Under the pieces are notes generated by a model, which searched no databases, was not told the DNA's origin, and saw only the letters and a list, made by a program, of their open reading frames with translations. The position numbers were made by a program, and so were the translations under genes. A stretch of DNA of 64,000 bases from Muricauda sp. MAR_2010_75 (GTDB lineage Bacteria; Bacteroidota; Bacteroidia; Flavobacteriales; Flavobacteriaceae): positions 1,511,501 through 1,575,500 of the forward strand of contig NZ_JQNJ01000001.1 in NCBI RefSeq assembly GCF_000745185.1, given 5' to 3'. Every line of letters begins with the position of its first letter. Within the stretch, counting starts at the first letter, position 1. Shown here one piece after another: positions 13,039 to 19,542 of this stretch.

Positions 13039-14283
13039 ATGAAGCATTTACTCTTAATAGGTGCATTGCTGTTAAACGCAATGGTAGGTGATGCACAACA
13101 GTATGAATCAATTAAAAAGAAAAATAAGATGAACAACAAGGAAATTGCACTGGCAATCAATCAAGCAGTCCAAAATGCGGAGGCGGACAACGCCGCTGCA
13201 TTGGTCACAGAAAACTACATTCAACACACCCCAGTTGTCCCCAATGGGAGAAAGGGCTTGAAAATGCTGTTGACCAAAATTAAGAACCGAGAGATTCCCG
13301 CTCCCAAATTAAATACGGTTCGGATAATAGAGGAGGGGGATTATGTGGTCCTGCACCATGAAGCACATTGGCCCAACCGGAAGGCTATGTTCGAGATTTT
13401 CAGATTTAAGGAAGGTTTGGCAGCGGAACACTGGAGCGGTATCATGGACCATCCAGAGAAGACCGTTAGCGGCAATAGCATGTTTGATGGGGAGACACAA
13501 ATCACAGCATTGGACAAAACGGATGTAAACAAGGCTATTGTAAAATCGTTTGTGGAAACTGTATTGATAGATGGGGATTTGAAACCGGAAACGATTCAGA
13601 AGTTCTACGATACTGATATTATCCAGCACAATCCATTCGTGGATAATGGCTTGGATGGTTTTGTGCAGGGAATCACAGGCCTGCAAAAACAGGGCATCAC
13701 TGTTGAGATAAACAGGATTCATTACCTCATTGGACAAGGAAATTTTGTGTTTGCTCTTTCCGAAGGAAAGTTTGGGGAAAACGGAGGGAAACCCACTGCG
13801 TTTTTTGATTTGTTCCGATTGGAAAAGGGTAAAATTGTGGAACATTGGGATGTGCTTCAGGAGGTTCCGGAGAAAATGGCCCATGATAACGGAATGTTCA
13901 AACAATCACTTTACAAACGATTGGGCGGGTATGATGGCATAGCCGCTTATGTGGACCATGCATTTCCCCAAGTGGCTGGGCATCCTGATCTTCAGCATTT
14001 GTTCATTGGGCATTCCATGGCCACAAAAATGAGACAAAGGCAACTCATCATCGATAAATTGTCGAGCACATTGCAAGGCCCTACCATTTATTTGGGTAAA
14101 CCATTGAACGAAATCCACCAAGGACTGGAAATTACTCAGGCACAATGGGAATCGTTTATGGGAGTGATGCGCAAGGCGATGGATGAAAGAGGCATAAACG
14201 GTGAAACGAAAAAGGATTTTATACATTTATTTGAGAATTTTAGGGGAGTTACGGTGGAAGCCGAATTGGGCAAGCAGGAATAG
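13039..14283 (+). CDS. Exported fusion of two SnoaL-like domains and a truncated hemoglobin
   Basis: This 414-residue protein has three domains behind a signal peptide (hydrophobic 4-18, ending GDAQQ). The first SnoaL/NTF2-like domain (about 33-150) and a second homologous one (about 163-285) both end in HW, then MDHPE or QEVPE. The C-terminal part, 291-403, is a group I truncated hemoglobin: LYKRLGG start, GP-IYLGKPLNEIHQGL with H360 as proximal haem ligand. The B10 position, often tyrosine, is F309. A globin exported with two ligand-binding folds would act in the periplasm or at the surface. The globin assignment and signal peptide are clear; the function is unknown. Confidence 0.85.
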   Translation: MKHLLLIGALLLNAMVGDAQQYESIKKKNKMNNKEIALAINQAVQNAEADNAAALVTENYIQHTPVVPNGRKGLKMLLTKIKNREIPAPKLNTVRIIEEGDYVVLHHEAHWPNRKAMFEIFRFKEGLAAEHWSGIMDHPEKTVSGNSMFDGETQITALDKTDVNKAIVKSFVETVLIDGDLKPETIQKFYDTDIIQHNPFVDNGLDGFVQGITGLQKQGITVEINRIHYLIGQGNFVFALSEGKFGENGGKPTAFFDLFRLEKGKIVEHWDVLQEVPEKMAHDNGMFKQSLYKRLGGYDGIAAYVDHAFPQVAGHPDLQHLFIGHSMATKMRQRQLIIDKLSSTLQGPTIYLGKPLNEIHQGLEITQAQWESFMGVMRKAMDERGINGETKKDFIHLFENFRGVTVEAELGKQE

Positions 14284-14375: not shown

Positions 14376-15368
14376 ATGCAAAAAATTGGAATACTTGCGT
14401 ATCAAAACTGTACGGCGTCCATGCTCTATGGAGTAGCAGACATTCTTTCGTTGGCCAACGCCCAGCTTCTTGCTCAGGAAAGAGACCCTTTGTTTGCCGT
14501 GGAAATTTTTACCATGGACAATCAACCGGTAGAATGTTTCAATGGGTTGACCATTCACCCAAGCCATAAGCTGAGGACCACCCGGGGATATGACCTTCTT
14601 TATATTCCTGGATTTGTCGGGAATGAAGAATCCACGCTTGAACAAGAAGCGAAAAGTATTGAGCTAATTAGAAGCTGTTTTAGAAAAGGATCTAAACTGG
14701 CCGCTGCCTGCAATGGGAATTTTTTTCTTGCGGAGGCTGGGGTGCTCAACGGAAAAAAAGCAACCACCCATTGGGCATTAAAGGAAAAATTCCAATCAAA
14801 ATATAAGGAAGTGCGGTTACAACCAGAACATATAATCGTTGATGAGGGCAACATTATTTCTGCAGCGGGGGTTACCGCGTACTTTAACTTAGCCTTGTTC
14901 ATTGTTCAAAAATTTGGCTCCAAGGAACTTTCCACGAGCTGTTCCAAAGTGTTTCTAGTGGATTCCGGGAGGCGTATACAAACTCCTTATCAAATGTACC
15001 AAACCCCCAAGAACCATGGAGACCGAGAAGTAGTGCATATTCAGGAATGGCTGGAAGAAAATTATACGGAGGAAATCGACAATAAAAAGTTGGAATTGCT
15101 GAGCAACCTCAGCAAGAAAACCTTGGAGCGACGATTTAAAAAAGCCACGGGATACACACCTTTAAAATACCTTCAAAAAATTAGGATTGAAACCGCAAAG
15201 AAAATGCTGGAATCCCTAAAGCTGTCCTTTAATGAAATCACTTGGAAAGTGGGGTATGAAGATGTGAGCTCTTTCCACAAATTGTTCAAGGCCGATACTG
15301 GGTTAAACCCGATAGCGTACAGACGAAAGTTTTCATTGATTTATTCGAATGAGGACACGAAGCCATAG
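14376..15368 (+). CDS. GlxA-type regulator: DJ-1/PfpI domain plus AraC DNA-binding domain
   Basis: This 330-residue protein has an N-terminal class I glutamine-amidotransferase-like (DJ-1/PfpI) domain (1-195) with the nucleophile-elbow cysteine C112 in AACNGNF. The AraC double HTH lies at about 225-318, with RRFKKATGYTPLKYLQ and FHKLFKADTGLNPIAYRR. Such regulators sense small metabolites or oxidants through the DJ-1 domain. It sits 92 bases after the exported globin fusion and on the same strand, so it is the best candidate for that gene's regulator (inference). Confidence 0.92.
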   Translation: MQKIGILAYQNCTASMLYGVADILSLANAQLLAQERDPLFAVEIFTMDNQPVECFNGLTIHPSHKLRTTRGYDLLYIPGFVGNEESTLEQEAKSIELIRSCFRKGSKLAAACNGNFFLAEAGVLNGKKATTHWALKEKFQSKYKEVRLQPEHIIVDEGNIISAAGVTAYFNLALFIVQKFGSKELSTSCSKVFLVDSGRRIQTPYQMYQTPKNHGDREVVHIQEWLEENYTEEIDNKKLELLSNLSKKTLERRFKKATGYTPLKYLQKIRIETAKKMLESLKLSFNEITWKVGYEDVSSFHKLFKADTGLNPIAYRRKFSLIYSNEDTKP

Positions 15369-17725: not shown

Positions 17726-18100
17726 TTACTTACCTATTATCATGCCTTTTAATGACCAAAGGATTTCGAGTACATCTTTTTTAGTTTGGGCATTTTTCCC
17801 GTGTTTATCAAGTACCATGAAAATATCATCCATCGTCTCCATATATTCTGCAGCACTTATGTTCATTCCTCGGTGGGTTGTTTCCATATCCCTACCAGTA
17901 TAAACCTGCGGTCCACCGCTTCCAGCTGTAAAGAAATTAACGGTATGCGTTTTAATCTTCGCCAAATTTTCTGGCTGCTCTAAATAGGGAGAAAACCTAG
18001 CGGAAATCACCGGGTTGTTCATATGTGCTTCAACCACATCATCTACAATTTTCACAATTCCTTTTTCTGCACCTAATCGTTCGAATAATGACTCTGACAT
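17726..18100 (-). CDS. Truncated hemoglobin (group I-like)
   Basis: This 124-residue cytosolic globin has the LFERLGA start, GGPQVYTGRDMETTHRGM with proximal His76, and the usual length of about 120. The B10 position is Val23 rather than the Tyr found in NO-dioxygenating TrHbN, so ligand chemistry may differ. The upstream gene on the same strand is the DUF4242-AraC regulator, but the globin has its own -7 element. Together they form a two-gene unit enclosed by inverted repeats. Confidence 0.9.
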   Translation of the reverse strand: MSESLFERLGAEKGIVKIVDDVVEAHMNNPVISARFSPYLEQPENLAKIKTHTVNFFTAGSGGPQVYTGRDMETTHRGMNISAAEYMETMDDIFMVLDKHGKNAQTKKDVLEILWSLKGMIIGK

Positions 18101-18141
18101 AATTTTGGATTTATTTACTTATTTAAGAATACATTTAATAT

Positions 18142-18149
18142 CAAATGTA
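18142..18149 (-). promoter_or_regulatory. -7 promoter element of the truncated hemoglobin gene
   Basis: The plus-strand CAAAtgTA reads TAcaTTTG on the minus strand, a perfect match, about 42 bases upstream of the globin start. No good -33 element was found. Confidence 0.5.
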
Positions 18150-18236
18150 CCTTTTGTCTTAAAGCTGTACTAACACTATCAAACCAAAAGAATGTAAATT
18201 TTGACCAAAAACAGCAATATGCTAGTGTTGGCCTCT

Positions 18237-19328
18237 TTATGAGTGAATGGCCGTCATATAATCTTTGGGAGATATTCCATACATGCTACGAAAGCACTTT
18301 GAATAATATGAGGAGCTGGAAAAGCCACATAAAAAAGCCGTTTCGGATACGGTATTCATCCCACTGTCCAGTTTATCCAATGATTTTTCCAACCTATATT
18401 TATTGAAGTATACGTTTGGTGAAAAACCTAACAAACCCACACTATTTCTATAAGCTTGAGACCTACTGTATCCAAGGCTGGAGGCAAATGCATCAATTCT
18501 TAATTTAGCATGTGAAAAATTGGCCTCCAGAAAATCAAAGAGCTTATTAAAGAAAATCATCTCAACCACACTAATCTTGGTAAATTCCATTGAATTGAGA
18601 TCGGTATCTGATTGTTCATCCTGATACAATTTCAGCACCACAGGCGACACCGAAAATCCTCTTTCCATTTCACATAATCTCCTTGAAGTTTGGATGGTTT
18701 CTTCAAATATGGATTTATTGCTCTCCACTGGTAGCCCCGCATCCAAACCTATACTCAAACTGAGATGGGGATATACATTTCCGAATGTCTCGTGAAGTAC
18801 TAGTCCACAATGCACAGCGTGTTGGGCAGTTGTTAAAGAGGCCAGCAGGTTACGGCTACCTTTCCGTACAAGTGTTCCTTGCTTATCATTGACCACTTCT
18901 ATGACCTTATGCATATAGTCTCTTATGGTTGATGCTAAACCTTTATCTTGTTTATTGTTTAACTGCCCGATTTGTATTCGAACCGATAGTAAAAAACGAA
19001 ATGCGGGTTCGTCAATTATGTTCAGTTCAGCCCCAGGCTTTACATCAGGATCTTGCATTCTTCCAAGAAATGATTCAATAAGACTTGCATCTACCTCAAT
19101 AATTGAATGAGACAACTCACCGTGTGCATGCTTGTGCATTTTGTTGACAGACTCGGCATTTGGAGCTTCTACCAAACAGAATGCGGTTTTTCGCTTATCA
19201 TCAAACCAATATGTTAACCCACGGCAATTGTACTTGTGCTGAATCTTTAGGTCTTCTTGATGTAATCGTGCAACACTTTCGGCAGTTACTTCTTGAGATA
19301 CATCATGACGATCCATGTATATTGGCAT
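18237..19328 (-). CDS. DUF4242 / degenerate nucleotide-cyclase / AraC fusion regulator
   Basis: This 363-residue protein has three parts. Residues 1-82 are a DUF4242 (nickel-binding-type ferredoxin-like) domain, with MPIYMDRHDV, LTYWFDDKRKTAFCLVEAPN and the His-rich HKHAHGE. Residues 108-235 resemble a class III nucleotide cyclase: the C-terminal LSLSIGLDAGLPVE, then TSRRLCEMERGFSVSPVV matches the RxGxxxG-AaRl-xxxVS pattern. Both metal-binding aspartates are absent (SVRIQI and GSRNLLA in their places), so it should be a sensor, not an enzyme. Residues 258-360 are the AraC HTH pair. It lies 137 bases upstream of the truncated hemoglobin, its likely target. Confidence 0.85.
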   Translation of the reverse strand: MPIYMDRHDVSQEVTAESVARLHQEDLKIQHKYNCRGLTYWFDDKRKTAFCLVEAPNAESVNKMHKHAHGELSHSIIEVDASLIESFLGRMQDPDVKPGAELNIIDEPAFRFLLSVRIQIGQLNNKQDKGLASTIRDYMHKVIEVVNDKQGTLVRKGSRNLLASLTTAQHAVHCGLVLHETFGNVYPHLSLSIGLDAGLPVESNKSIFEETIQTSRRLCEMERGFSVSPVVLKLYQDEQSDTDLNSMEFTKISVVEMIFFNKLFDFLEANFSHAKLRIDAFASSLGYSRSQAYRNSVGLLGFSPNVYFNKYRLEKSLDKLDSGMNTVSETAFLCGFSSSSYYSKCFRSMYGISPKDYMTAIHS

Positions 19329-19542
19329 AGGTACTTCTTTGAATGAATAGACAATATAAGCTTATTAAATCTGTGTTTATTTGATTATCCTCAAAAATCG
19401 ATTAAATCAAAATAACGATATGCCAACAATGGCAATAAGTAATTGCTGGTTCTTGCCTAGTTCTGAAAATCCTGCAGAATTTACAGATTGGTATATATTT
19501 GCTAAAGTTCGTACTAACCCACGCAACTACTCATAGCTGAGT

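Follow-up and report, generated by a model that had tools for sequence, protein, structure and literature searches.

Among the activators of the AraC/XylS family, AraC of E. coli senses its ligand through an arabinose-binding cupin and occupies araI1-I2, i.e. two direct half-sites that adjoin the promoter with a spacing of 21 bp. Class III cyclases, in turn, work as dimers, and mycobacteria possess cyclase-HTH fusions such as Rv0386, in which the DNA-binding part is of the LuxR-type and an ATPase part is present. SCO4226 of Streptomyces coelicolor is a standalone protein of only 82 residues. According to its description (PMC4186839), SCO4226 is a nickel-binding protein whose gene is nickel-induced; Asp43, Ser46 and His76 form the Ni-1 site, and five ligands are conserved in Streptomyces.

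We analyzed a window of 64,000 nucleotides from the genome of Muricauda sp. MAR_2010_75, whose minus strand carries at 18237..19328 an ORF for a regulator of 363 aa. By Pfam and ORF analysis, this protein joins an SCO4226-like (DUF4242) domain (residues 4–79; 19092..19319, minus strand), a degenerate class III cyclase-homology domain (approximately residues 106–260; 18549..19013, minus strand), in which R117 and R159 replace the metal aspartates, and an AraC-type helix-turn-helix domain (residues 282–358; 18255..18485, minus strand). The latter was recognized by Pfam as the double helix-turn-helix that marks the AraC/XylS family. The DNA-binding domain is common to the regulator and E. coli AraC and the geometry of the predicted half-sites is alike, but an SCO4226-like and a degenerate cyclase domain stand in place of the cupin as sensor, and the predicted promoter is of the Bacteroidota type, unlike that of E. 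coli AraC. As in Rv0386, a cyclase-homology domain and a DNA-binding domain reside in one protein, whereas the DNA-binding domain is AraC-type rather than LuxR-type and is accompanied by an SCO4226-like domain rather than an ATPase part. The class III adenylyl cyclases Ma1120 and Rv1900c possess a domain homologous to that of the regulator, which differs from them by arginines in place of both metal aspartates and by its fusion to AraC. Of the three Ni-1 ligands reported for SCO4226 (PMC4186839), the regulator retains one. No published description of a DUF4242-cyclase-AraC architecture was found in the literature searched, which leaves out most subscription papers, and the search likewise returned no paper on DUF4242 together with AraC, or on truncated hemoglobin and the AraC family in Bacteroidetes.

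Domain composition and conservation of the regulator

The SCO4226-like domain matched PF14026 with 73.7 bits (cut-off 28.5) over profile positions 1–76 of 76, and structure prediction of the regulator yielded a mean pLDDT of 82.6 and a pTM of 0.77. The relationship of the middle domain to class III cyclases was visible by profile and structure comparison only. An earlier note on this DNA had proposed the succession of DUF4242, pseudo-cyclase and AraC domains with loss of both metal-binding aspartates, allowing that domain searches might reveal no cyclase relationship; Pfam, profile and structure comparison bore out the architecture, the cyclase relationship held, and both positions are indeed occupied by arginines (R117, R159).

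Homologues of the regulator were numerous (2,863 proteins at E ≤ 1e-3), and PF14026 and the AraC domain were present in all 120 homologues among the matches listed. A search with the middle domain by itself retrieved 20 close relatives. Within the genus Muricauda, a near full-length match was found in 8 of 30 genomes, the window genome counted. Across the phylum, the middle-domain profile exceeded 80 bits in 15 of 395 genomes, one of them being the genome that carries L132 (see below). Tandem pairs of DUF4242-cyclase-AraC regulators occur in loci L129, L130, L131 and L133, and several of these proteins retain both metal aspartates.

The best conserved part of the regulator is the SCO4226-like domain, in which D6, H8, H23, D26, F50, C51 and H65 are invariant across all 152 aligned sequences; conservation is lower in the middle domain. 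Alignment with L132 placed R117 and R159 at the metal aspartates and Q213 at the Asn position, and revealed retention of the Arg residue as R217. For the 126 core sequences, which comprise 46 sequences of alignment A1 and 80 from the loci and may include some organisms twice, the first metal aspartate was found in one, the second in 33 and both in one, i.e. at least one of them is missing in 125 of 126; R217 is retained in 108. Beyond this core, both aspartates are retained in nine of 26 further sequences (L132, L125, L134, both proteins of L129 and of L131, and one of the two in each of L130 and L133). Taken together, these counts indicate that the metal aspartates were lost gradually.

L132 (1423-2250, minus strand) encodes a distantly related protein of 275 aa that combines PF14026 with PF00211 (64.5 bits) and looks like an intact class III cyclase, as it carries the sequences FTDIVGS, TGDGF and VNLAAR, which we take to be the catalytic cyclase motifs. 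Pfam detected no AraC domain in it. Judging from this single protein, a DUF4242-cyclase of the L132 type without AraC domain is a plausible ancestor of the regulators. In the family to which its genome G385 belongs, no other intact DUF4242-cyclase protein was found among 27 genomes. An active cyclase was rejected for the window regulator because R117 and R159 occupy both metal aspartate positions; its cyclase domain is predicted to be catalytically dead.

A conserved site with a predicted Bacteroidota promoter

A common sequence 3' of the regulator was first seen by reading the DNA of 17 loci. For the operator model, a 40-position weight matrix was employed and every locus was scored by a matrix built without that locus. 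All counts describe a set of 81 loci, i.e. the best 80 of 240 confirmed in a scan of named genomes plus the window. Within this set, the site reached at least 14.3 bits and was top-scoring in the whole locus in 69 of 81 cases. The other 12 loci had no match above 10 bits in the stretch used for training, but nine of them carry a strong site elsewhere, scoring 29.0 to 39.3 bits. When whole loci were scanned, a strong site (>15 bits) was present before the adjacent target gene in 78 of the 81 loci (best 80 of 240 plus the window), with none detectable in L011, L069 and L077; L066 has the site, with no target within 500 nt. In all six loci in which the target precedes the regulator (L023, L030, L046, L052, L059, L079), the site precedes this upstream DUF4242 gene, and in the other three of the nine loci with a strong site outside the training stretch (L010, L031, L034) it overlaps the end of the regulator gene. 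Additional, weaker matches of 9.0 to 16.4 bits were found in 8 of the 78 loci.

Several controls addressed robustness of the model. With a matrix derived from the other 69 sites, the sites of the window's clade ranked first in 9 of 9 loci, and in a held-out test the predicted operator ranked first among 6,378 positions in L002. Following redundancy reduction, the site was kept in 41 of 42 classes at 70% identity and in 24 of 25 at 60%; at 50% only four classes were left, three of which had the site. When motif searches were started from random seeds in the true region, the number of loci recovered at rank 1 varied from 5 to 69 of 81 between ten runs, many of which missed the site; in the two control regions it was 5 to 14 (of 80 loci) and 3 to 16 (of 74 loci). 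The spacer and the 15 bases before the site contain at most 0.27 bits per base, versus up to 2.2 inside the site, and common descent of the region therefore does not explain the match. An RNA element in place of a DNA operator was also considered and rejected: at E ≤ 1, Rfam returned one match only, which is sub-threshold (20.7 bits; gathering cut-off 64) and located on the plus strand at 19252-19351, away from the site.

In the window, the weight matrix predicts a 40 bp operator at 18168..18207 (minus strand) with half-sites at 18207..18190 and 18186..18169, 21 bp apart. Among offsets 5 to 29, self-similarity of the matrix peaks at 21 bp with 0.223, the second-best value being 0.066 at 22. 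Inverted self-similarity is weaker, with 0.147 versus 0.223 for the direct repeat, but an inverted arrangement of the protein on the site would also be compatible with the matrix. Downstream of the site lies a putative -7 promoter box, TACATTTG (18142..18149, minus strand), which was located by its fixed offset from the site and corresponds to the Bacteroidota consensus TAnnTTTG (PMC6847099). Across the 78 sites, this box begins at one fixed offset, 58 bp after the first base of the site; T59, A60, T63, T64 and T65 each occur in 90% or more of the sites, and 44 of them have an exact TANNTTTG at this position. Using the numbering of PMC6847099, transcription of the globin gene would start near 18137 (minus strand). 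Relative to this predicted start, one half-site spans approximately -70 to -53 and the other -49 to -32. The conserved site with its predicted Bacteroidota -7 promoter, which follows the target gene from locus to locus, is new here.

For genome-wide searches we used R1, a sequence-only model of the 78 sites including the promoter; the genomes G005 and G009, which encode more distant regulators, were left out. In the window genome, the globin promoter was the best match with 29.3 bits, its site being part of the training set. A wider regulon in this genome was considered and dropped: the second match is partial (18.9 bits) and the remainder is weaker. In eight of the nine other genomes with regulator, the best match in the genome was located within about 0.6 kb of the regulator; in the ninth (G414), the locus breaks off inside the regulator, presumably at a contig end. 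By eye, seven of these sites differ from every row used for training. Four of five genus genomes without regulator contained nothing above 18.1 bits, and the fifth (G004) has a partial match inside an ORF, which scored 26.0 bits as compared to 26.7 bits of G001, and 10.9 by the matrix. The window genome also encodes a standalone DUF4242 protein (L001, 1468-1740, minus strand), and none of the 17 site matches of the genome is near it.

The globin and the other target genes

The gene behind the predicted operator encodes a group 1 truncated globin of 124 aa (17726..18100, minus strand; PF01152, 42.5 bits), and the solved structures closest to it are likewise of group 1 truncated hemoglobins (7tt9, E 7.7e-27; 8ugz, E 1.8e-26). 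In an alignment of 41 sequences, H76 at position F8 and H26 at B13 are found in 41 of 41, and H52 at E10 and F36 at CD1 in 40 of 41. 8UGZ is SbHbN of Shewanella benthica, a member of the little-studied subgroup N-2; for SbHbN, PMC11904497 reports lack of reversible O2 binding and hints at roles in redox balance and detoxification of reactive oxygen. In our own reading of the alignment with SbHbN, B10 is V23, E7 is I49 and E11 is T53. Subgroup N-2 is marked by hydrophobic residues at B10, E7 and E11; the window globin, with SbHbN as a near solved relative, shares with it the hydrophobic B10 and E7 but has T53 at E11, and is a candidate for this subgroup. The proteins further share the unusual His residue at B13, but differ at E10 (His versus Met in SbHbN) and CD1 (Phe versus Tyr in SbHbN). 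Since the E10 residue may coordinate iron according to PMC11904497, we propose, as a guess, that the window globin could be a bis-His redox globin using H52. A second globin in the window also adjoins an AraC-type regulator: a protein of 414 aa (13039-14283, plus strand) comprises two SnoaL-like domains, a C-terminal truncated globin and, by eye, a possible signal peptide, and is directly followed by a DJ-1/PfpI + AraC regulator (14376-15368, plus strand). This SnoaL-globin fusion has 865 homologues at E ≤ 1e-30, and most of the 120 listed display an identical set of three Pfam families.

Within 3 to 3.5 kb of the regulator, a globin was found in 41 and an FAD/BBE-type flavoenzyme in 38 of the 81 loci (best 80 of 240 plus the window), followed by cupin c4 and a standalone DUF4242 protein (15 each), cupin-like c5 (10) and MddA (3). 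At least one of these kinds of neighbor is present in 77 of the 81 loci, and all gene clusters other than the regulator are confined to 41 loci or fewer. Neighbors were identified by testing one representative per kind: the flavoenzyme resembles EncM along its length (E 1.8e-101), MddA was assigned as methanethiol S-methyltransferase by NCBIfam (347.8 bits; cut-off 270), the DUF4242 protein, cupin c4 and SnoaL were identified by Pfam, and c5 stayed under the cut-offs. A link to nitric oxide through an "NnrU" target was dropped, as the tested representative is MddA.

The first gene after the site in the 78 loci is the globin in 37, cupin c4 in 12, the flavoenzyme and the DUF4242 protein in nine each, c5 in three, and SnoaL, a double DUF4242 protein and MddA in two each; one locus has an acyl-CoA-dehydrogenase-like gene (by eye) and one has none. 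The double DUF4242 target was recognized in L035, with that of L072 being similar by eye. When mapped onto a quick, unrooted tree built from the 81 regulators (77 labelled rows), the nine kinds of target need 20 changes (minimum 8), as compared to a mean of 37.5 with shuffled labels, which never gave a value as low as 20 in 200 trials; the window's clade of nine loci has globin targets throughout. By this measure, the targets cluster on the regulator tree and yet appear to have been exchanged repeatedly. The globin had been proposed as the partner of the regulator, with its absence from homologous loci as the opposing case. It is adjacent in the window and belongs to the regulator's vicinity in 41 of the 81 loci (best 80 of 240 plus the window), but being first after the site in 37 of 78, it is not a dedicated partner.

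Two further observations concern individual loci. L061 has an open frame of 52 codons between operator and cupin target, which by eye resembles the start of a globin and is perhaps a decayed one. The cupin target of L016 (6466-6948, plus strand) weakly matches a solved DMSP lyase (E 3.9e-4), behind BacB (1.4e-4). Since MddA is found among the other targets, the match is a possible hint at organosulfur chemistry.

Predicted mode of action and alternatives

Based on these comparisons, we consider the regulator likely to be a ligand-responsive transcriptional activator of the globin gene. The signal would be received by the SCO4226-like domain, as its conservation suggests, and the dead cyclase domain would, to judge from its fold, hold the dimer and pass the change on. 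The two AraC domains of the dimer could then occupy one half-site each, at a spacing of 21 bp and with the half-site closer to the promoter ending beside the -33 region, and the bound regulator would help RNA polymerase at the -7 promoter. In the relatives, the same regulator and site may control a different gene or short operon, taken from a limited repertoire. Repression from the same operator with release by ligand appears unlikely. The sign of regulation is not readable from sequence and a protein bound near the -33 region could block polymerase, but the two half-sites are found upstream of the -7 box, always at the same distance from it, and this is where AraC-type activators usually sit. 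It is highly improbable that a different regulator uses the site and that the neighborhood was inherited without regulatory link: the patchy distribution (8 of 30 genus genomes) would permit the genes to travel together, but the site tracks the target gene rather than a fixed position, the best site adjoins the regulator in eight of nine genomes with regulator, and other gene clusters are limited to at most 41 of the 81 loci (best 80 of 240 plus the window).

As to the signal, binding to the degenerate cyclase domain, perhaps of a nucleotide, is rather unlikely. Retention of R217 in 108 of 126 core sequences and of both aspartates in nine of 26 further sequences would be in favor, whereas the first aspartate is left in only one and the second in 33 of the 126, and the domain is conserved less than the SCO4226-like domain. 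A nickel-responsive regulator, as suggested by the PF14026 fold and by the nickel binding and nickel induction reported for SCO4226, is very unlikely. His23 and Asp43 are retained of the five ligands conserved in Streptomyces, but of the Ni-1 site only D43 is kept, Ser46 being R46 and His76 being I77, and Glu74 is replaced by S75; I77 and S75 were placed by our own extension of the alignment, and all these assignments refer to the ligands named in PMC4186839. Moreover, the NCBIfam nickel-binding model NF033706 scored 44.3 bits, below its cut-off of 125, and no nickel transport or nickel enzyme family is among the named kinds of neighbor. Nickel sensing by homology was accordingly demoted from leading idea. 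The SCO4226-like domain probably binds something, with nickel as one candidate among others. Of the control of the globin through a metal and a nucleotide, as envisaged in the earlier note, the regulatory link gained a conserved site with predicted promoter, while both modes of sensing are unsupported: the Ni-1 site described in PMC4186839 keeps one ligand of three, and 125 of 126 core sequences miss at least one metal aspartate.

Returning to ligand-dependent activation through the SCO4226-like domain, the mixture of targets suggests a reactive small molecule as inducer. The globin would have a protective role and might conceivably carry out redox reactions at its heme with the inducing compound or with products derived from it. 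More tentatively, and somewhat against the odds, the locus may represent a plug-in cassette: a DUF4242-cyclase enzyme would have lost catalysis and gained an AraC domain, giving rise to a one-operator switch, in which sensor and operator stay and the outputs (globin, EncM-like flavin oxygenase, cupins, MddA, SnoaL, DUF4242 proteins) are exchanged, all of them answering one shared small-molecule signal that DUF4242 proteins bind or convert.

In this protein, a cyclase domain has been preserved although it lacks the residues that synthesis of a cyclic nucleotide requires. The Bacteroidota regulator family gains a concrete predicted DNA site and promoter, by which its function becomes testable in many genera. 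The locus also provides a handle on little-studied truncated globins, as apparently the same switch calls a globin, a flavin oxygenase, a cupin or a methanethiol methyltransferase, depending on the species.
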